NCBI GenBank assembly: GCA_937872225.1
Contig: CALMRZ010000044.1
Span: 1-46,787, forward strand
Reading direction: 5' to 3'
DNA: 46,787 nt
From: an uncultured Spirochaetota bacterium
GTDB lineage: Bacteria > Spirochaetota > UBA4802 > UBA5550
Shown: piece after piece, positions 24,534 to 35,540 of the stretch
How the letters are laid out: every line of letters begins with the position of its first letter
How positions within the stretch are numbered: the stretch's first letter is position 1
Notes under the pieces: generated by a model
Told to the model about the DNA's origin: nothing
The model's input: only the letters and a program-made list of their open reading frames with translations
The model's database searches: none
Program-made: the position numbers and the translations under genes

Positions 24534-24628
24534 ACTGTCCCACTTTGAAAAAAACAGTCCAGCATAAATTTTTTCAAATAATCAATTCTCATTCGTTATT
24601 ATTCATAAACACGAAAAAGGAGAATTAT

Positions 24629-25222
24629 ATGCCTCGACCATTAAGAAATATTGCACAGGGATCAACCCATCACATTTTCAGCCGATGCCATGGCCGAAGA
24701 AACCTTCTTCAGGGTAAATATGGGAAAATATATTTCATTGAGGCCATCAACATGTGCCAGGAAAAATATGATTTTGAGTTAATTGCCGCAGAAATAGTGG
24801 CAAATCACATACACCTTATCATTAAAACATGTGAAGGAAAGGAAACAATTTCCCGCATCATGCAATATACTAAGGCAAGAATTGCAGAAAAATACAACAG
24901 GGCCATGGGAACAACCGGGGCTTTTTGGAATGAGCGTTTCGGATCGACCGTGATTGAAGAGGCGGACAATCCTGAAGAATATTTTTTATGGCTGTTGTGG
25001 TACATTGGGTATAATCCAGTGAGGAAAGGACTGTCGCGGGATCCGCGTAAAAATGATATTGGATTTATTAACTGTTATCTTGATAAAAATTACAAACCTC
25101 TTATCAAGATTACACTACATAATTATTTTCTCAAGCTAGGAAAAACCTTTGATGAATGCGTTAAGGCTTTTCTCTTTTATGAAGAGGCTTACCGTAAGAG
25201 GCTGGCTGTGTATTATAAATAA
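24629..25222 (+). CDS. REP-associated tyrosine transposase (RAYT, IS200-like Y1)
   Basis: A 197-residue Y1 transposase. It begins MPRPLRNIAQGSTHHIFSRC and has the metal-binding HxH as NHIHLII (His 60 and 62). A tyrosine-bearing helix follows near residues 118-128 (EEYFLWLLWYIGYNPVRKGL), matching the YI..NPVRAGL block of RAYT proteins. These enzymes bind and cut short palindromic REP sequences as single strands. Motifs GGGGTCAGAGC flank the gene on both sides. GC content is clearly lower than in neighbouring genes, suggesting acquisition. AAAAAGGAG precedes the ATG. The gene looks intact. Confidence 0.85.
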   Translation: MPRPLRNIAQGSTHHIFSRCHGRRNLLQGKYGKIYFIEAINMCQEKYDFELIAAEIVANHIHLIIKTCEGKETISRIMQYTKARIAEKYNRAMGTTGAFWNERFGSTVIEEADNPEEYFLWLLWYIGYNPVRKGLSRDPRKNDIGFINCYLDKNYKPLIKITLHNYFLKLGKTFDECVKAFLFYEEAYRKRLAVYYK

Positions 25223-25319: not shown

Positions 25320-27425
25320 TTATTGCACCCCGCCATAATAACCGCTTTTGCCGGCCGCGCCGGGATTGCCGGCTGAAGCGCCTCCTGCCCCCCCGGAACC
25401 GTGATTTAGCGTAGGAGTTGAACCGGACAATATAATTCCGGAAGACCAACCGCCTTTATATATCGTAAAAGAGGGTCCTCCGGCGCCGCCGCCGCCGTGA
25501 CCGCCGGTGCCGCCCTTTCCGCCATGGCCGCCATGGCCGCCGGCTCCGACTTCATCAGTATCAGCATTCCCGCCATTGCCGCCTTCACCGCCATCGCCGC
25601 CTTCACCGCCGTTGCTGCCTTCACCGCCGCCACCGCCGCTGCCACTGGTAATTGTGCAGTTTGTTATTGTTACAACCGAATCATTTAAAAAAATGCCGAA
25701 GGACGCGCCACCGCCGCCGCCGCCGTGACCGCCGGTCCCACCTGTGCCGCCGGCTCCGCCGCCGCCGCCGTTGCCAATACCATAATATTCAAATATAGGC
25801 AGCGAACCCGTAATAGGAACAGGTGTAGTCCATACCTGTTGCCCGCCTCCGGCGCCTCCACCGCCCCCGCCACGTCCATGCTGGCCATTCCCTCCATTAA
25901 CACCGATCGATGTAAACCAGAGGCTGCCGGTGATTGACCCTCCTGAGCCACCGGTGCCATTGGTGCCAACGGAGCCGTTCAATCCATCACTTCCCGGAGA
26001 GCCATCGGTAGCGCTTTGCAATTCAATTACTTGAGTATATCCATATGTCCCTCCGGCACCTCCGCCCCCTCCCAGGGTAAGGGATCCAACCAATCCATTA
26101 TTACCGGCAGAACCGTTTTCACCATTGATGCCATTTCCTCCATTGCCGCCTCCTGATCCGATACCAGATGCGCTACCGGCTCCTCCTGCAACATATTCAT
26201 TGCAATCCCCGCTTATAACATCTGCAAGTGAGCAGCCACAATCATCAATTCCATCCGCTCCTGTCCCACCTTGTCCGCCATTACCGGCCTTCTCAATAGT
26301 TGATCCATTCAATCCAGCAGCGCCATTCCCGGCTGTTATAATGCAATTTTTCAATTCCACCGTGCTGTTTATCAGCCTTACCCCATAGGAGCCATCCCCT
26401 CCCGTCGTGGCATTGGCGCTGGTGATGGTTAATCCATCGACGACAATGCCATTAACGGCGTTACCATCAACCGCGATGGTTCCGCCCTGAATAGTGGTCG
26501 TATATAAGGGAGTTACTGAGGACTTAAAAGTGTCCCGTTCCCATGTGGATGGATCAAAACCTCCGAAGAGGCTTACACCGTCGGCCAATGTCACGCTTTC
26601 ATTATATGAACCCGCGCTCACGTACACATCGCTTCCGGCAGACCGGGCAGCGATCATGGCCGCACCAATGGTCTTCAAAGGCCTGGCGTGGGTGCCTTCG
26701 TGGGTGTCATCGCCCGTTGTCGCCACATAGATCCCGGCCCCGCCTTTTTTCATGACAAAAATATATACGCGGTCGGCAAAGCTGTCGCCGGAACCGTCAT
26801 CGACCCGCAGATCATAGGCGATCGTGCATACCTCCAGCGGAGCGGTGATGGAGGGATTGCTCCCGGTAAGGATGCCGGTCCCGATCGTAGGACCGTATAT
26901 CTGGGTCCAGGTGTACGTCAGTATGTCATTTTCAAGATCTGAGCTGCCGCTCCCGTCCAGTGTCAGGGTATCGCCGATGGTCACCTCCCGGTCGACGCCG
27001 GCATCGGCCGTGGGTCCGTTATTGACGGCAACGTCCACGGTCACCGTATCAGTGGCGGAAGCAGACCCGTCATTGACGGTTAGCAGTATCTCATAGGTCC
27101 CGGCCGTGTCAAAGGTGAAGGACGTGGCCGCGCCGGACGGTTGTGAGAATGAAAAATTGCTCCCTGTTGGCTGATATCTCACCGTCCATGAATAGGCGAG
27201 ATCCTTTCCTTCGGGATCGCTGCTCTCCGATCCATCCAGGTCGACGCTACCCTTCAATATGCTGACCCTCTGGTCGGGGCCGGCATCGGCGACCGGCGTG
27301 GCATTTCCTCCAAGCAATGACGGAATCAGGACCAGGCCTTGGCTCTTTTTTTCATTATCGCATTCTGTAACAATGCCGCAGGCTATGATCAACGCCAGTG
27401 TTGTGAGTTTTTTTCCGTAATTCAT
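25320..27425 (-). CDS. Glycine-rich PKD/DUF1565 beta-helix lipoprotein, paralogue 3
   Basis: A 701-residue protein. The signal peptide MNYGKKLTTLALIIACGIVT leads to a Cys at residue 22, aligned with Cys 22 in its two paralogues. Two PKD-like domains follow (ADAGPDQRVSILKGSVDLDG and ADAGVDREVTIGDTLTLDGS; about 45-215). Then comes a DUF1565-type beta-helix entry (GIYVATTGDDTHEGTHARPL ... VYVSAGSYNESVTLADGVSL) and a C-terminal half in which beta-helix rungs (VVTITNCTITSGSG) are separated by long GGxGG blocks. The architecture suggests a surface-displayed adhesin or scaffold; the function is unknown. It is the last gene of three tandem paralogues, 26 bp after the second. Confidence 0.85.
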   Translation of the reverse strand: MNYGKKLTTLALIIACGIVTECDNEKKSQGLVLIPSLLGGNATPVADAGPDQRVSILKGSVDLDGSESSDPEGKDLAYSWTVRYQPTGSNFSFSQPSGAATSFTFDTAGTYEILLTVNDGSASATDTVTVDVAVNNGPTADAGVDREVTIGDTLTLDGSGSSDLENDILTYTWTQIYGPTIGTGILTGSNPSITAPLEVCTIAYDLRVDDGSGDSFADRVYIFVMKKGGAGIYVATTGDDTHEGTHARPLKTIGAAMIAARSAGSDVYVSAGSYNESVTLADGVSLFGGFDPSTWERDTFKSSVTPLYTTTIQGGTIAVDGNAVNGIVVDGLTITSANATTGGDGSYGVRLINSTVELKNCIITAGNGAAGLNGSTIEKAGNGGQGGTGADGIDDCGCSLADVISGDCNEYVAGGAGSASGIGSGGGNGGNGINGENGSAGNNGLVGSLTLGGGGGAGGTYGYTQVIELQSATDGSPGSDGLNGSVGTNGTGGSGGSITGSLWFTSIGVNGGNGQHGRGGGGGGAGGGQQVWTTPVPITGSLPIFEYYGIGNGGGGGAGGTGGTGGHGGGGGGASFGIFLNDSVVTITNCTITSGSGGGGGEGSNGGEGGDGGEGGNGGNADTDEVGAGGHGGHGGKGGTGGHGGGGAGGPSFTIYKGGWSSGIILSGSTPTLNHGSGGAGGASAGNPGAAGKSGYYGGVQ

Positions 27426-27451: not shown

Positions 27452-29482
27452 TTATCCGCCATGCTGGCCGGAATCACCGGCATCGCCCGCGTTGCCCGAC
27501 GACGCGCCCCCTGACCCCATGGATCCATAGTTCAATGTTGTGTTATCAGTATTAATTACCGCAAACCACCCTACTTTATATATAGAGAAGGAGGGGCCTC
27601 CGGCGCCGCCGCCGCCGTGTCCGCCACGGCCGCCTGTCCCGCCTGCGCCTCCAGCTCCGGCTCTGCCAAGATTTTCATAGTCATCACCCGTTCTATCGCC
27701 GCCGGCGCCGCCTCCTCCGCCTGGTCCGCCAGGGCCGCCATTGCCGCCTTTCCCGCCATTGCCGCTTGAGATGGTGCAGTGAGTGACCGTTACGATGGAT
27801 TCGATCATGAAAAGACCGAAAGACGCGCCGCCGCCGGCTCCTCCGGGAGCGCCGCCTCCGCCGCCTCCGCCGGCGCCTCCTCCTCCTCCGGGACCTTTCT
27901 CATAACCGCCCTGAGTGCTCCCGCCGCCTCCTCCGCCGCCGCCTCCGCCCTGGCCCGGACCGCCGTCTTCTCCCGCGGAACCGACTGATGAAATCCATTT
28001 ACCGTTTATCACCGAGCCCGATGATCCGCCCGCGCCGTTAGTGCCCGCCGGTCCGGTTGCGCCGGTGTTCCCATTGTTGCCGTCCTCGCCGTCATGGTCA
28101 TAAAAATAATCGGACCTGCCTCCCGTACCGCCCAGGCCTTGGCCCATGGATTCGAGGAGACCTGTTTTACCGTTATTTCCGTTATAAATGTCGCCATACC
28201 CGCCGATTCCTCCCTTGCCGCCGGTTCTTCCCACGTCAGATACGCCGCCGGCTCCACCCCAGCCCCATTCGGTGTCGTTCTCGCCATAGTCAAAATAACC
28301 GCCGTCATTGCCCGGCCCGCCTTTGCTTCCTGCGGCGCCGGTTGCTCCCGGAGCGGTGATATTCGCTCCATCACGGCCCGGTGCTCCATTTCCCGCCGTG
28401 ATGGCGCAATCGTTGATCGCAACGGTGCTGTATTTCAGGCGCACCGCGTATGAACCCTCTCCATAACCGACGGCGTCGGCGCTATTGATAACGATACCAT
28501 CGAGTACGAGATTGCCGACCCCGTTTCCATCAACGGCCGTGGTTCCGCCATGTATCGTCGACTGATATGACGATGTATCGCGTTCCCATGTCCCATGAAG
28601 AAAACCGCCGTATATGCTCACGCCATTGGCAAGCGCCACGCTTTCCCCGTAGTCCCCGTCGCTCACGTACACATCATATCCCGCCGCATTGGCCGCGGTT
28701 ATCGCCCCCTGGATCGTCTTCTTGGGAGCCGTCCGTGTCATTCCATCGTTGGCATCGTCTCCAATAGCTGTTGACGCGTATATGCCGGCGCCGCCCTTTT
28801 CCATGACATAAATATATACGCGGTCCGGAGCGGAGTTACCACCGCCGTCATCGACCTGGAGATCATAGACGATGGTGCAGACTCCCGATGGCGCGGTAAA
28901 TGTCGGGGTTGCGCCGGTCAGCGTGCCCGTGCCGATGGCGGGACCGCTGACCTGGGTCCAGGTATAGGCAAGGGTATTGTTTTCTGGATCGGTGCTGCCG
29001 CTGCCGTCCAGGGTCACGACATTGCCGGCGGTAACCTCCTGATCGGCTCCCGCGTCGGCGGCAGCGGCGACATTGGTCCCGACGTTGACGGTCACCAGGT
29101 CCGACGCGGAGCGCGAACCGTCATTCACGGTAAGCCTGATTTCGTAGGTGCCCTCGAGATCGAAGCTAAGGGTCGTCGTTGCTCCGGCACTGTTCGAAAA
29201 AGAAGCGGCGCTTCCCGCGGGCTGAAATACCAGGGTCCACGCGTAGGTGAGGTCCTTGCCTTCGGGGTCATGGCTCCCCGATCCATCGAGATCGACGCTT
29301 CCGGAGGTCCCTGAAAACAGATATGTCGTCCGGTCAGCGCCCGCGTCGGCTACGGGCGCCTGGTTGGGTATAAATTGATTCAAACCCAGCATCAATCCAC
29401 GATAATCACGCTCACCGCAATAAGCCATGAAGAAACTGGCTGCTATTACGGCGATTGCGGCGCACAATTTCCTGAATTTCAT
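27452..29482 (-). CDS. Glycine-rich PKD/DUF1565 beta-helix lipoprotein, paralogue 2
   Basis: A 676-residue protein with the same plan as its neighbours: signal peptide MKFRKLCAAIAVIAASFFMA with Cys 22, PKD-like 1 (ADAGADRTTYLFSGTSGSVD), PKD-like 2 (ADAGADQEVTAGNVVTLDGS), DUF1565-type segment (VYVSDGDYGESVALANGVSI, YGGFLHGTWERD), then interleaved beta-helix rungs and glycine blocks (GGAGGGGGGGAPGG). It ends SSGNAGDAGDSGQHGG. ATG at 29482 is chosen since the signal peptide begins here and GGGGAA lies eight bases upstream; a longer in-frame start would overlap paralogue 1. Nearly every spacer codon is GGN, giving GGC/GCC-rich DNA. Confidence 0.85.
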   Translation of the reverse strand: MKFRKLCAAIAVIAASFFMAYCGERDYRGLMLGLNQFIPNQAPVADAGADRTTYLFSGTSGSVDLDGSGSHDPEGKDLTYAWTLVFQPAGSAASFSNSAGATTTLSFDLEGTYEIRLTVNDGSRSASDLVTVNVGTNVAAAADAGADQEVTAGNVVTLDGSGSTDPENNTLAYTWTQVSGPAIGTGTLTGATPTFTAPSGVCTIVYDLQVDDGGGNSAPDRVYIYVMEKGGAGIYASTAIGDDANDGMTRTAPKKTIQGAITAANAAGYDVYVSDGDYGESVALANGVSIYGGFLHGTWERDTSSYQSTIHGGTTAVDGNGVGNLVLDGIVINSADAVGYGEGSYAVRLKYSTVAINDCAITAGNGAPGRDGANITAPGATGAAGSKGGPGNDGGYFDYGENDTEWGWGGAGGVSDVGRTGGKGGIGGYGDIYNGNNGKTGLLESMGQGLGGTGGRSDYFYDHDGEDGNNGNTGATGPAGTNGAGGSSGSVINGKWISSVGSAGEDGGPGQGGGGGGGGGGSTQGGYEKGPGGGGGAGGGGGGGAPGGAGGGASFGLFMIESIVTVTHCTISSGNGGKGGNGGPGGPGGGGGAGGDRTGDDYENLGRAGAGGAGGTGGRGGHGGGGAGGPSFSIYKVGWFAVINTDNTTLNYGSMGSGGASSGNAGDAGDSGQHGG

Positions 29483-29498
29483 CGCATGTTCCCCGGTT

Positions 29499-31388
29499 TT
29501 AATTACTGTCACCGCAATAACCGTCATGGCCCTGGTTTCCGGCTGAGCTTCCCCCCGTCCCTCCGGATCCGGGATTTACCCTTGTGATTGTAATAATTGC
29601 TATAGATGTTCCGTTTTTATATGTCACTATTGACGGGCCTCCGGCGCCCCCGCCGCCATGGCCGCCGGCGCCACCATTCCCTCCGGCGCCGCCATTGCCG
29701 CCGCTGCCGCTCGTAAGATCGCAATTTGTAACAGTTACTACCGAATCGATCAGGAGCAGGCAGATAGAGGCTCCGCCGCCGCCGCCGAGGCTGCCGCCTT
29801 TTCCTCCGGCGCCTCCACTACCACCACCACCGCCGCCATTGCCTGTGCCATCAACGGCGGCATGGATTCCTGGCCACACGTTTTGACCGCCGCCACCGCC
29901 GCCTCCGTTTCCCGGTTCGCCATCAATTCCGGCACCACCGGGAGTTGAAACCCATAGATTGCTGATAATTGACCCTGAAGATCCTCCTGATCCACTGGAG
30001 CCATTGGTGCCTTTGGCTCCAGGGCTGCCGGCATACCCCGTTCTCCCCCTGGAAGTCGAGGCGCCTCCGTCCCCTCCCGGTGTTACAGGACTGCCGCTGC
30101 CATTGAGTCCGTAACTGCCGTCATTGCCGTTATTTTCGTCGTATCCGCCGGCTCCGCCGTTGCCACCATTACTGCCCGCCGGGGACGCGCCGCCTGCTCC
30201 GCCATAGGCATCTATCTCGCTATCCTCCCGTCCTTCTCCGCCCTGCGATCCGGCGGAACCATTGGCGCCGGCGGCGCCGTCCGCTCCATTCTGGCCCGGA
30301 GCGCCGTTGCCGGCCGTGACAATGCAATCATTAAACACGACGTTGCTGTTTATCAGGCGTACTCCATAGGAGCCTCCGCCCGCCGCCGTGGCGTTGGCAC
30401 TGGTGACGGAGAGGCCGTCGATAACACAATTATTCACGGCATTGCCGTCAACGGCGATGGTCCCTCCCTGCACGCTGCTACGGAACGATGTGATGTCACG
30501 CTCCCACGTGGTATGGAGAAAGCCGCCGTAGATGCTTACCCCGTTCGCCAGGGTCAGGCTTTCCCCGTAGTCCCCGTCGCTCACGTACACGTCGGCGCCC
30601 GCCGCCAGGGCAGCGGTAATGCCAGCCTGGATCGTTTTTTTGGGGGCTGCGCGAGTCATGCCGTCATTGGCGAAGTCGTCGCCGGTTGTCGATACGTATA
30701 TGCCGGCACCCGACTTTTTCATAACGAAAATATACACCCGATCAGACAGGCTGTTTCCCGATCCGTCATTTACGGAAAGATCATAGACGATGGTGCAGGC
30801 TTCCGATGGGGCGGCAAAGGTGGGATTGGCGCCGGTGAGGGTCCCGGCGCCGACGGCCGGACCGCTTACCTGGGTCCAGGTGTAGGTGAGAGAATCGCCT
30901 TCCGGGTCCGTGCTTGCGCTCCCGTCCAGCACCACGATATCGCCGAAACCGACTTCCTGGTCCGGCCCGGCGTTTGCCGCGGCGTCGGTGTTGTCCCCCA
31001 CGTTCACGGTCACCAGGTCAGAGGCCGTGCGCGAACCGTCGCTCACGGTGAGCATGATCTCGTAGGTTCCCGCGGTGTCAAAGGTCAGAGTCGTCTTGAC
31101 ATTGGCCGGGTCGGAAAATGAAGCGGCGCTTCCCGACGGCCGGTGGACTATTTCCCATGAATAGGAGAGGTCCTTCCCTTCAGGATCAAAGCTTTTTGAT
31201 CCGTCCAGGTCGGCGCTCCCGGTATAGAGGTAAATATTTTTATCGGCCCCGGCTTTTGCTACCGGCAGCTGGTTGATTGACATGACGGGTCCCTGCAGCA
31301 ATCCCTGCTTCTTGTCCGCGCCGCATTGGACCAGTATCCCGCAGGCCATGACGGCCGCGATCACTATGAGTTTATAACGGTATTTCAT
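29499..31388 (-). CDS. Glycine-rich PKD/DUF1565 beta-helix lipoprotein, paralogue 1
   Basis: A 629-residue protein, the first of the three in transcription order. Signal peptide MKYRYKLIVIAAVMACGILV with candidate lipidated Cys 22 (Cys 16 is also possible). PKD-like domains begin at AKAGADKNIYLYTGSADLDG and NAGPDQEVGFGDIVVLDGSA. The DUF1565-type block (GIYVSTTGDDFANDGMTRAA, VYVSDGDYGESLTLANGVSI) and glycine-interrupted beta-helix follow. It is nearly collinear with paralogue 2 through residue 330 and diverges in the glycine part. No clear ribosome-binding site precedes the ATG (an A-rich stretch is there). It lies 63 bp after the frame that continues the barrel gene, so one operon is likely. 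Confidence 0.85.
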   Translation of the reverse strand: MKYRYKLIVIAAVMACGILVQCGADKKQGLLQGPVMSINQLPVAKAGADKNIYLYTGSADLDGSKSFDPEGKDLSYSWEIVHRPSGSAASFSDPANVKTTLTFDTAGTYEIMLTVSDGSRTASDLVTVNVGDNTDAAANAGPDQEVGFGDIVVLDGSASTDPEGDSLTYTWTQVSGPAVGAGTLTGANPTFAAPSEACTIVYDLSVNDGSGNSLSDRVYIFVMKKSGAGIYVSTTGDDFANDGMTRAAPKKTIQAGITAALAAGADVYVSDGDYGESLTLANGVSIYGGFLHTTWERDITSFRSSVQGGTIAVDGNAVNNCVIDGLSVTSANATAAGGGSYGVRLINSNVVFNDCIVTAGNGAPGQNGADGAAGANGSAGSQGGEGREDSEIDAYGGAGGASPAGSNGGNGGAGGYDENNGNDGSYGLNGSGSPVTPGGDGGASTSRGRTGYAGSPGAKGTNGSSGSGGSSGSIISNLWVSTPGGAGIDGEPGNGGGGGGGQNVWPGIHAAVDGTGNGGGGGGSGGAGGKGGSLGGGGGASICLLLIDSVVTVTNCDLTSGSGGNGGAGGNGGAGGHGGGGAGGPSIVTYKNGTSIAIITITRVNPGSGGTGGSSAGNQGHDGYCGDSN

Positions 31389-31640: not shown

Positions 31641-32216
31641 TCATTCATAGAACATCCCCCCTTCGAAAATAAAGGACAGTGTTTCCATTACATGGTAATT
31701 CAATCCCAGGACGATTCCGGGAGAAAAGAGGCGCGGGATCACAATGTTGATATCCCTGCTCCAGAGGTTGTTCGGATAATAGACCGATGATATGCTGACT
31801 CCGGCCCAGGCGCGGACCGACCTGTTGCGGAAGAAGGCGAATCCCACTGTATTTTTGAGGCTCAGGCGGAAGGCGTGTCCGTGGGTCAGGGGAGGCACGT
31901 AGTTATATTCCGCCCAGATGATGTCGGGCGGCCGGGGATATCTGAATTCGTCGAATCCCACCTGGAGCCTGTAATTTACCAGGGAATCGCCGCCGGGGCA
32001 GGTATCGAATACCAGCCCGGCGCCGTAGAGATAATTCATGCCCCTGAAATAGAAATCCAGGTACACGGGGGCGGACGCGTACAGGTAATATTTCTTTAAC
32101 CGCGATTCCCCGATTCCGCCGTTGAAATAGACGCCGAGGCCGTAGGCGGATAGGGGCTGCGAAGAGACAAGCAGTATAAAAAAAGCGAGTGGAGTCAGTA
32201 AAAGTTTATTCCGCAC
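31641..32216 (-). CDS. Outer-membrane beta-barrel-like protein, ended by an in-frame TGA
   Basis: A 191-residue product with a signal peptide (VRNKLLLTPLAFFILLVSSQ, then PLSAYG) and short amphipathic strands (AYGLGVYFNGGIGESRLKKY, FRLSLKNTVGFAFFRNRSV, VLGLNYHVMETLSFIFEGGM). A GTG at 32216 with AGGGGTG upstream is the likely start; an ATG at 32366 would add a segment lying at the predicted transcription start. The frame stops at TGA 31641-31643 but the code continues beyond (see 31452-31640). The family is unknown. It lies downstream of a LytTR-type operator and promoter and upstream of the three lipoprotein genes. Confidence 0.6.
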   Translation of the reverse strand: MRNKLLLTPLAFFILLVSSQPLSAYGLGVYFNGGIGESRLKKYYLYASAPVYLDFYFRGMNYLYGAGLVFDTCPGGDSLVNYRLQVGFDEFRYPRPPDIIWAEYNYVPPLTHGHAFRLSLKNTVGFAFFRNRSVRAWAGVSISSVYYPNNLWSRDINIVIPRLFSPGIVLGLNYHVMETLSFIFEGGMFYE

Positions 32217-32372
32217 AATGGCACCCCTGCTCTGAGTTCTAGGCTCCCTTGACAGATATGCCCCATCGTGAGGACTGAACAGACCTCCTCCTTTTTCGGA
32301 TAATACAGGGAAGTTGCAATAGAGCATGCATAATGTTATGAAAAATTTGACAAAGCCCACCCACAAGGGCCT

Positions 32373-32402
32373 ATTATAATTAAGCTACAATAGGTATTCC
32401 AA
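32373..32402 (-). promoter_or_regulatory. Sigma70-type promoter of the barrel/lipoprotein operon
   Basis: On the minus strand, TTGGAA (32402-32397) and TATAAT (32378-32373) are 18 bp apart. The -10 is a perfect consensus while the -35 is weak, as expected for an activated promoter. The predicted start near 32366 leaves a leader of about 150 nt. Confidence 0.55.
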
Positions 32403-32416
32403 TAAATCAATAGGCC

Positions 32417-32452
32417 GGGAATGAACGGTGCTTCAGGGGGAATGAATGGTGC
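32417..32452 (-). promoter_or_regulatory. Candidate LytTR operator: two direct repeats with 21-bp period
   Basis: GGGAATGAACGGTGC (32417-32431) and GGGAATGAATGGTGC (32438-32452) differ at one base and start 21 bp apart, two helical turns. Read on the minus strand the core is ACCGTTCAT, which fits the general LytTR half-site pattern [TA][AC][CA]GTTN[AG][TG], and ACCATTCAT, one mismatch. The site ends 14 bp before the -35 box of the promoter at 32373-32402. It lies 5 bp after the stop of a kinase gene that ends in a LytTR domain. Confidence 0.6.
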
Positions 32453-32456
32453 GTGT

Positions 32457-33796
32457 TTATTGCATTTTTTTTCTCAGGGAATCCAGGAAAGCCGCTCCCA
32501 CCGGGAGCTCTGTTTCGTCATCGTCCCTGAGGCGTACGCGGTAACGGCCTGAAATCATGTGGGAAAGGCTGTGGATGTATCGCAGATTTATTACATGGCT
32601 TTTATGGATCCTGCCAAAGAGGTCCGGCGGGAGGCGGTCTATGATATCCTTTATAAGAACGGGAACCTCTGTATCCCCTTCCACGGTGTGGAGCACGCAG
32701 TTTTTTGAATGGGACGTGATATATATTATTTCTTTAAATATAAAGGAATAGACCCTGTCCCGGCCGCGGATGGTGATGCCCTCCGTGGCGGATTTCCGTA
32801 TGCTTCTGATCTTCAGCATGGTGCCCACGCGCGCACGGAGCTCGCTTACCCGGAAGGGCTTCACGATGTAATCGTTGGCCCCGGCATTGAAGGCCGCGTT
32901 GATGTCGGCCATCATGTTCTTCGCCGTGAGCATTATCACGGGAAGCTCTTCCGGGGGCCGGCTGAGGCGTATCCTCCTGCACACGTCATACCCGGACATG
33001 ACCGGCATCATGATGTCCAGGAGGACCAGGTCGACGGGCTCTCCGCTCTCGATGATGTTGAGGGCGTTGACGCCGTCCAGGGCGGTTTTCACGACGCATC
33101 GCTTTGCTTCAAAATAATTCTGTACGACCCTGACGCAGACCGGATCATCATCAACAACGAGAATCACCGGGTTATCGGTAAAGGCGCCGTTACTCGCTCC
33201 GGCGGAAAGCCCGACCGGCGTACCGTCCGGCGTCGCCGCGGCCAGATCGGCGATTATCTCGATCTCCTCCGTTTCGGGGGCCGCCTCCTTCGACGCCGGC
33301 AGGGTGAAAATGAATACCGATCCCCCATCCCGGCCCGGTTCCACCTGTATGGCGCCGTTATGGAGCTCGATGATCTGCTTTGCTATGGCAAGGCCCAGGC
33401 CGGTGCCGGGATACAGGCGGGTATCGTTTCCATCAACCTGCCGGTAGGGTTCGAATATTTTCTCCCGGTATTCCTCCGGGACCCCGATGCCCGTGTCCGA
33501 TACGCGCACTTCGATCATGGTCCCGTCTTCATCTTCGCCGCCGGTCCCGTGGATGATGCGGGCCGACAATTCAATCGTCCCGCTGATCGTGAACTTGACG
33601 GCATTCCCGACCAGATTGCACAGCACCTGCCGGATGCGGTCTTCATCTGCGTGCGCGGCGGGGATATCCGGCCTGATGCTGTTTATTAAGGCCAGGTGCT
33701 TCCCGGCGGTCAGGGGCATCGAAAGCCTGATCACCATCTCGGCCAGGGAATGCAGGTTCACCGGCTTCTGGTTAAGGCTCAGTCCCTCGTCCTGGA
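32457..33796 (-). CDS. Hybrid histidine kinase, C-terminal part: HATPase-REC-LytTR (after frameshift)
   Basis: This frame continues the kinase at 33779-35314 and has no start of its own. Its first residues (KIQDEGLSLNQKPVNLHSLAE) are the normal link from HisKA to HATPase. The ATPase has NLVGNAVKFT (N box) and TGIGVPEEY / TGLGLAIAKQ (G boxes). The receiver has ILVVDDDPVCVRVVQ and the phospho-Asp in DLVLLDIMMPVMSGYD. The last 100 residues are a LytTR DNA-binding domain (IIYITSHSKNCVLHTVEGDT, FGRIHKSHVINLRYI). Kinase, receiver and DNA-binding output thus lie in one chain. The candidate operator lies 5 bp after its stop codon. Confidence 0.85.
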
Positions 33797-35314
33797 TTTT
33801 CGCCAGTCAAGGATGTCATTGACCATGTTCGCAAGGCGATGTCCGCTCGAGGCGATGAGGGAGAGGTTTTCACGCGCTTCAGGGGACATGCTGCCGGCGG
33901 CGCCTTCCAGCATGGACTCCGACAGGCCTATCATGCCGTGGAGGGGAGTGCGCAGCTCGTGGGACGTGGTGGCGAGGAACTGGTCCTTGAGCCGGTCCAG
34001 GTTCCGGAGGGTGATGTTCTTTTCGGCGAGGTCCTTCGACAGCTCCTCGACCCGCCAGAGGGCCCTGGAATACCTCCGCGAGATGACGATGGTGATGACG
34101 ATGCTGAGCATGACGACCCCGTACTGGGTAAGCGTCGTGGTGTTGACGACCCACATGGCGTACAGTATATCATTGACAGCCCCGATGAACACGGGCGTGA
34201 AACCAAAGATAAACAGTATGGCATCTTCCCTCCGCTTTATTATTACTTTGGCCAGCACATAGGCATTGTATATAATAAGGATGAAGCCCAGGAAATAATA
34301 GACTTTTATCAACTCTTCCGCCGTTTTGAAATCCACAAAAAGAAGCACGGGAACATGCAGGACGGCCACGATCTGATAAAACCTGACGAAATATATCGAC
34401 ATGTCATCGGGAAACAATGACTTGACGGTCATCAGGATAAAAGGGACGTAGATGACGATAGTAATATAATTCAGATAATAGGGGTACCGTGGAATAGTCA
34501 GGCCATCGGGCAGCAGGGGGAATTGGTGATTGAGCGTATTAATGGCCAGGATAAGACAATACGTCCCAAAATAAAGGGAGGCCGAATCCTGGCGACGAAA
34601 AAAATATGACAGTATATTGATGACGGACGCGAAGATAAGCAGGCCGAAAAGGACCATGTCGATTGTGTAACTTCGCTTCATGTTTTGCTCGAAGTTCGCG
34701 TTATTTTCCAGCAGGATGGACCGGTCGATGCCACCCGATCCGTAATCGCGGTTGAACACCTGGATGATGATCTCGTTCGTTCCTTCGTTCATCGTGAAGG
34801 AGGAATTTCTTTTATTATGAATGAATATATAATTCTCCGGGACTTTCGAGGTCTCGTCGATCGATCCCCGTTCGTCGACCAGCTTCTTGTTGATCCAGAG
34901 CCGGTACGCCGAGTAAACGCGCTGGATGGTCACGGTTTTCAGCGTCGCATCCCCACCGCCGAGAATCCGCAGGCGATAAGTCGCCTGTCCATCGCCCGGC
35001 AGTGCGGCGCCCTTCACGATGCGGTTTTTCCATAATCCGGGTACGGTCATGTACCCGCAATCTTCCCGGGCAGCTGACGGGGTGATATCAGAGGGCTTGA
35101 GAAGCCTGTTCCAGTAGAATTCCCACTCGCCGTCAAGGGTGACGCCGCCGTCTTTGTTAAAGTCCCATCCCCTGAGATCGATGACGCCCCGGTGCGCAAC
35201 GGGTCTCGTTTTCCCCGCCGGATTATAGCCGCATCCGGTCATGGCCCCGGATGCCAGGCAAAAAAGGAGGCACAGGTAAGGAAGAATCCTTGCTGGCGAA
35301 ACGGAAGAATCCAT
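33779..35314 (-). CDS. 7TM (DISM-like) hybrid histidine kinase, N-terminal part (frameshifted)
   Basis: The frame codes for about 511 residues. A signal peptide with a lipobox-like MTGCG (near residue 25) leads to an extracytoplasmic jelly-roll-like domain (GVTLDGEWEFYWNRLLKPSD, TYRLRILGG, RLWINKKLVDERG) as in 7TMR-DISM receptors, then seven hydrophobic segments (about 245-430). The HisKA domain has LATTSHELRTPLHGMIG (phospho-His about 451) and stops at DILDWRKSRTRD. A single A lost from the A run (T 33797-33800 on the plus strand) explains the stop: with one more A the chain reads DILDWRKIQDEGLSLN into the next frame. The start ATG (35314) is the best fit to the signal peptide but has a weak ribosome-binding site. 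Confidence 0.8.
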   Translation of the reverse strand: MDSSVSPARILPYLCLLFCLASGAMTGCGYNPAGKTRPVAHRGVIDLRGWDFNKDGGVTLDGEWEFYWNRLLKPSDITPSAAREDCGYMTVPGLWKNRIVKGAALPGDGQATYRLRILGGGDATLKTVTIQRVYSAYRLWINKKLVDERGSIDETSKVPENYIFIHNKRNSSFTMNEGTNEIIIQVFNRDYGSGGIDRSILLENNANFEQNMKRSYTIDMVLFGLLIFASVINILSYFFRRQDSASLYFGTYCLILAINTLNHQFPLLPDGLTIPRYPYYLNYITIVIYVPFILMTVKSLFPDDMSIYFVRFYQIVAVLHVPVLLFVDFKTAEELIKVYYFLGFILIIYNAYVLAKVIIKRREDAILFIFGFTPVFIGAVNDILYAMWVVNTTTLTQYGVVMLSIVITIVISRRYSRALWRVEELSKDLAEKNITLRNLDRLKDQFLATTSHELRTPLHGMIGLSESMLEGAAGSMSPEARENLSLIASSGHRLANMVNDILDWRKSRTRD

Positions 35315-35540
35315 ACAATGATGAAAAAATGAAAGAGCAGGGGTGTCAAGACATTTCAGACAGTGAGCATGGCCGTGTCGTGCCCCCTTCTCTCTGTATC
35401 GTCCTCCGGCGGCAAGGACTTTCAACTCAGAAATGCAGAGAGCGCCGAAGGATCCGAAAACTCAGTGTTTCTCCGCGTCCTCCGCGGCTGTGTATTGATT
35501 AGAAGAAATCAGTATTGTGAGGGATTTTGCCGGTATTTAT

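Follow-up and report, generated by a model that had tools for sequence, protein, structure and literature searches.

Two 15-bp direct repeats immediately behind a gene for a LytTR-ended hybrid kinase very probably form the cognate operator of that kinase, through which it would switch on the downstream operon. The sequence-only reading had placed a LytTR activator-type operator beside a LytTR gene. Comparison of sequences strongly supports this proposal, as position, 21-bp spacing and sequence of the site are kept behind orthologous kinases.

The repeat pair in the window

We analyzed a 46.8-kb stretch of DNA (the window) from genome G000. On its - strand, alignment with 12 orthologous sites delimited a distal 15-bp repeat, GCACCATTCATTCCC (32438..32452), and a proximal one, GCACCGTTCATTCCC (32417..32431); their forward-strand letters are GGGAATGAATGGTGC (32438-32452) and GGGAATGAACGGTGC (32417-32431), respectively. 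The two 15-mers were identical at 14 of 15 positions and made up a site of 36 bp in all. The earlier claims that the repeats start exactly 21 bp apart (32417 vs 32438), and that one core matches the LytTR pattern fully and the other with a single mismatch, were both borne out. The proximal 9-bp core ACCGTTCAT (32421-32429, - strand) was a full match to the LytTR half-site pattern, the distal core ACCATTCAT (32442-32450, - strand) had one mismatch to the general pattern, and 12 bp lay between the two. Read along the - strand, the stop of the LytTR gene (32457-32459) is followed by 4 bp, GCACCATTCATTCCC, 6 bp, GCACCGTTCATTCCC, 6 bp and TTGATT; the gap after the stop had been given as 5 bp and is corrected here to 4 bp.

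No second pair of 15-mers with at most one mismatch at a spacing of 20–23 was present in the 46.8-kb window, and the same held for pairs of LytTR-pattern half-sites within these limits. Across all 4.69 Mb of the genome, CACCRTTCATTCCC was matched exactly by the two half-sites of the pair and nowhere else. A half-site on its own was not rare once three mismatches were tolerated; thus, pairing and spacing carry the weight. The site has the features by which LytTR activator-type operators are recognized in sequence: direct 9-bp repeats, a gap of 11–13 bp, and a nearby −35.

Conservation of the pair behind orthologous kinases

We scored the window LytTR protein's locus together with those of its 17 closest relatives (56–69% identity) and six more distant ones (41–44%). 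The 250 bp after each stop were scored for the repeat pair with spacing free at 19–23, and 100 dinucleotide shuffles of each sequence served as its control. Results showed a pair after the kinase stop in 12 of the 17 close orthologues (13/18 with the window included), every one at 21 bp, with the same 12 bp between the 9-bp cores in 12/12 orthologous sites. These pairs were 4–77 bp from the stop and scored 23–30 of 30, each exceeding the maximum of its own 100 shuffles. The close orthologues come from MAGs of related spirochaetes and are intact hybrid kinases with the order 7TMR-DISM–HisKA–HATPase–REC–LytTR; the closest named relative was a Spirochaetes MAG (L046). No site was found beside the gene of close orthologue G010a, and no recognizable site downstream of the more distant kinases G027b, G027c and G018b. 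For the distant G021, a diverged candidate with 21/42 geometry was seen by eye and did not rise above the shuffles.

A sequence-only model of the sites beside kinases, including the −35 (model R1), was run on 38 genomes. Matches at E <= 0.01 occurred in 12 of the 38, all 12 of which have such a kinase, and the window operator scored top of all sites (42.7 bits). Within G000 the model returned no further operators at E <= 1, leaving the given site as the only one. Several kinases that lacked a downstream copy had a match just upstream and divergent, namely the close kinases of G024 and G010b and the more distant ones of G018 and G019. The match of G004b lay 3.8 kb upstream of the kinase, before three lipoprotein genes running into the kinase gene, and only there was the kinase downstream of the site in the same direction. 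In G015d the match was 1.2 kb downstream of the kinase, and in G039 a LytTR gene directly precedes the site. A weaker site (E 0.06) was located in G007 at the stop of a PNPOx-LytTR (pyridoxamine-oxidase-LytTR) gene, which is kin by its LytTR domain only. At this locus (L125; G007 contig 19, about 205535-205576), the one-component PNPOx-LytTR protein and the site are followed by a gene that looked flavodoxin-like by eye.

Most matches precede genes for lipoproteins or exported proteins. An intergenic position with a co-directional gene within 450 bp was found for 5% of random positions in these loci versus nearly all sites; the exceptions were G015y and also G020x, where gene calls are unclear.

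The kinase gene and the surface-protein operon

The gene beside the site is split in two. Its 3' part (32457..33761, - strand; 434 aa) encodes HATPase_c, receiver and LytTR DNA-binding domains, and its 5' part (33779..35425, - strand) a 7TMR-DISM membrane sensor and HisKA, all assigned by Pfam. The LytTR domain matched PF04397 at E 2.3e-17; searched as a single sequence against the PDB it gave no match, and its family profile matched the AgrA LytTR structure (3bs1) at E 7e-8. The LytTR domain read earlier in the adjacent gene is there, but it belongs to no plain response regulator and forms the C-terminal end of a membrane-bound 7TMR-DISM hybrid kinase. One base missing between about 33779 and 33806, in the HisKA-HATPase linker, splits the frame in G000, and the window's genome has no single intact kinase frame. 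In close relatives the kinase is a single open frame of 956–1058 aa, intact at this linker. The G004 orthologue, to which the window's 3' part is 69% identical, carries 7TMR-DISM, HisKA, HATPase_c, Response_reg and LytTR in one 957-aa chain; that is, the domain set of a hybrid transmembrane regulator, from transmembrane sensor to DNA-binding domain in one chain, is present in the relatives. The break in G000 is either a real mutation or an assembly error.

The first gene downstream of the site (31641..32366, - strand) encodes a predicted exported outer-membrane-type protein, and its true start probably lies inside this ORF. It ends at a TGA (31641-31643) where the G004 and G015 orthologues keep Trp, and about 60 homologous codons continue in frame after the TGA. 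Three PKD-domain predicted lipoproteins follow on the - strand: a glycine-rich one (29499..31388; Pfam) with an orthologue in the operator-bearing G004 operon, a second (27452..29527) and a third (25320..27425), the latter two assigned by Pfam and by comparison with the G004 operon. A copy of the same operator in G004 precedes this orthologous operon; its outer-membrane protein shares 86% identity with that of the window, its PKD proteins share up to 76%, and there is no kinase nearby. G015 has an operator before the orthologous outer-membrane protein, with only a LytTR remnant upstream. Beyond the operon, a 225-aa + strand ORF at 24545-25222 resembled a REP-associated transposase (Y1_Tnp type) by eye, and similar 224-aa ORFs adjoin G015 operator loci.

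The locus in G000 could be a relic, in which a decaying kinase gene and a stop in the first target gene mark a circuit gone out of use. We consider this unlikely, while giving it some weight. The frameshift and the TGA in place of a conserved Trp would both fit such decay, as would the G015 operator with its mere LytTR remnant. However, apart from these defects the frames of the three PKD genes and of HATPase-REC-LytTR remain open, the window operator has the highest score of all sites, and assembly errors can occur in a MAG. Either the G000 locus is at the start of decay, or these are errors in the MAG.

Promoter position

A −35 box, TTGATT (32405..32410, - strand), sits at the conserved position, 10 bp past the proximal 9-bp core and 6 bp past the 15-mer, and is TTGAC-like in relatives. 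Its 10-bp distance from the repeats is inside the published range of 4–11 bp (mostly 10). In eight of the 13 sites that had been detected from the repeats only, a TTGA begins precisely at +42, counted from the first base of repeat 1; one other was at 43, and no further offset was shared by more than one site. A TTGA at +42 means that repeat 1, repeat 2 and the −35 are evenly placed at 21 bp, or two helical turns. Because R1 was trained beside kinases and with the −35, counts of the −35 from model hits are partly circular, whereas the 8/13 count is not. At two loci, L126 (G015y) and L124 (G004y), the best −35 candidate was displaced downstream of its usual place, by 21 and about 11 bp, respectively. 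These shifts of two turns and one turn suggest that helical phase may be kept.

The accompanying −10 candidate in G000, TAGCTT (32382..32387, - strand), is weak, with 3/6 consensus matches at a 17-bp spacer from TTGATT. TTGATT-17-TAGCTT thus scores 7/12, and promoters at this conserved offset are stronger in relatives, up to 11/12 in G009 and G015x. The sequence-only reading had instead chosen TTGGAA-18-TATAAT (32373..32402, - strand), 14 bp from the 15-mer. This promoter is present as described and is a good consensus match (10/12), but it is not kept in relatives, which have a TTGAC-like −35 at +42. We rejected it as the conserved promoter, since its offset was not that of the best promoter in the other canonical-pair sites and TTGAC at +42 was kept. 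The G000 −10, poor at the conserved position and TATAAT only at a non-conserved spacing, counts against our best explanation, as do the split kinase frame, the early stop in the first target gene and the lack of a site beside G010a; the weakness of the promoter at the conserved offset may be compatible with activator dependence.

Just past the promoter, a small hairpin AGGCCC-TTGTGGGT-GGGCTT with a T-rich tail was observed at 32353-32372 (- strand), which is a possible leader attenuator. At the same position, about 83 bp past where repeat 1 begins, three G027 loci have better hairpins with T runs; G004a and G004y contain weaker look-alikes, as G000 does. We rejected the idea that the module generally includes a terminator close to the promoter: a strict hairpin-plus-T test was passed by three of 28 sites, against 0.5 expected, and all three were from G027.

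A LytTR operator might also serve repression, the regulator blocking the promoter until a signal frees it. CoxC, a membrane-bound LytTR protein, is indeed a repressor (PMC11347149). Its operator overlaps the −35, however, whereas the window repeats end 6–10 bp upstream of the conserved −35 in an activator layout, and the −10 box is poor in many of these promoters. We regard repression as improbable.

Operator variants and orphan sites

Several genomes carry more than one version of the site. In G004, the site of kinase a and that of one orphan operon have GCGCCGTTCATGCTT in common, and the site of kinase b and that of a second orphan are both of the TGGCCGTTCATTCC type. Each variant was present twice, with 4/36 positions differing within a class and 10–12/36 between classes. 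G027 has three sites with the odd half-site ACATCTTG and one close kinase. As far as sequences can tell, this pattern is the trace that dedicated regulator-operator pairs would be expected to leave. Duplication of whole operons could be the source of part of the similarity between sites, because G027a and G027x also have homologous target genes. An expanded locus was observed on G020 contig 17 (L070 and L071): there a unit made up of a hybrid kinase gene, an operator and a gene for a large, repeat-rich lipoprotein occurs four times in tandem, and the operator variant differs from unit to unit.

Orphan copies without an adjacent kinase (G027x, G027y, G004y, G010x), and the similar site beside the PNPOx-LytTR protein of G007, raise the alternative that a different LytTR protein uses the operator in trans. 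The orphan copies of G027 argue against it: they match the unusual half-site of the kinase-adjacent copy in a genome with one close kinase, and are thus best explained as extra targets of that same kinase. Use in trans is, in our judgement, very improbable. A chance or mobile repeat has practically nothing left to recommend it and was rejected as refuted by the comparative data, since exact spacing and position are kept in >20 loci with different flanks, the genome holds no further copies, and the motif scan earlier suggested as a check for such a repeat placed the relatives' matches 5' of genes, beside LytTR kinases or ahead of homologous surface-protein operons.

Returning to the operator as the cognate site of the adjacent kinase, we tentatively consider a broader possibility, to which we give rather less than even chances: that spirochaetes have a family of membrane-bound LytTR hybrid kinases whose paralogue-specific operators move with duplicated lipoprotein operons as address labels. 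If this were true, one cell would hold several insulated sensor-to-surface-protein channels.

Proposed mechanism and relation to known systems

Activator sites described for LytTR proteins consist of 9-bp direct repeats with a 12-bp gap, and in most cases 10 bp separate them from the −35 downstream (PMC6193735). The window layout, ACCATTCAT-12-ACCGTTCAT-10-TTGATT, matches these activators, from which we infer an activator site for the LytTR domain of the adjacent kinase. Most LytTR proteins act as activators from a position upstream of the −35, with CoxC overlapping it and repressing (PMC11347149), and two monomers of YpdB bind cooperatively (PMC4847170). In the mechanism that we propose, the receiver-activated protein would occupy the site as two copies, each placing its LytTR domain on one of the two direct repeats, and both domains would sit on the same face of the helix at a distance of two turns. 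From there they would touch RNA polymerase at a promoter with its −35 exactly two further turns downstream, and the operon for the outer-membrane protein and PKD lipoproteins would be switched on. Binding, activation rather than repression, and dependence on phosphorylation are presumed in this scheme, and the protein in contact with the DNA would be the membrane-bound kinase and no separate regulator.

This work assigns a predicted regulator, operator and target operon in uncultured spirochaetes, for which we found no transcription data, and connects families of large surface lipoproteins with a 7TM sensor. The two to four paralogous kinases with differing operators in several genomes offer a natural experiment on change in LytTR specificity; the same set informs how signalling channels stay insulated, and the paralogue-specific operators are the part of specialist interest. 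The sites also furnish natural, independent data on the 9-12-9-10 layout published for LytTR activators. We found no description of 7TMR-DISM kinases ending in LytTR, or of their operators, in the open-access literature, which is weak evidence of novelty.

The activator sites of LRS operons (HdrR, BrsR and relatives) resemble the window site in having two 9-bp direct repeats (ACCRCTTAT type), a 12-bp gap and 10 bp to the −35 (PMC6193735). The LRS regulator is a small LytTR protein, restrained by an inhibitor in the membrane, and targets its own operon, whereas the window regulator is a 7TM hybrid histidine kinase, its repeat unit is conserved over 15 bp, and its target would be a surface-protein operon (PMC6193735). 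No LRS-like regulator with a separate transmembrane inhibitor was seen in the window, nor LRS-like autoregulation, the sole G000 site being behind the kinase gene. YpdB of E. coli at PyhjX is likewise a LytTR response regulator with a direct repeat (GGCATTTCAT) and a single target promoter (PMC4847170). YpdB binds cooperatively to two sites, a feature that the window system would share; its kinase and regulator are separate, unlike the window system, which is fused in one membrane protein (PMC4847170). CoxC and RcoM share a direct-repeat LytTR operator with repeats two helical turns apart, and 7 TM helices anchor CoxC in the membrane; they differ from the window in having three repeats, another consensus, and no kinase or receiver domains, and the CoxC operator overlaps the −35 and represses (PMC11347149).

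The operator type is already known. Bacteroides hybrid two-component systems have an AraC-type output domain with a periplasmic sensor. The window family is like them in that a single membrane protein carries the sensor, the kinase, the receiver and the domain for DNA binding (PMC10269533), and unlike them it has a LytTR output domain and a 7TMR-DISM sensor. Such kinase-receiver-DNA-binding membrane fusions are known as hybrid transmembrane regulators and are common in Bacteroides (PMC10269533). The new aspect of this known design, judging from the loci compared, is a regulator-plus-site module that appears to have been duplicated and diversified across many surface-protein operons.
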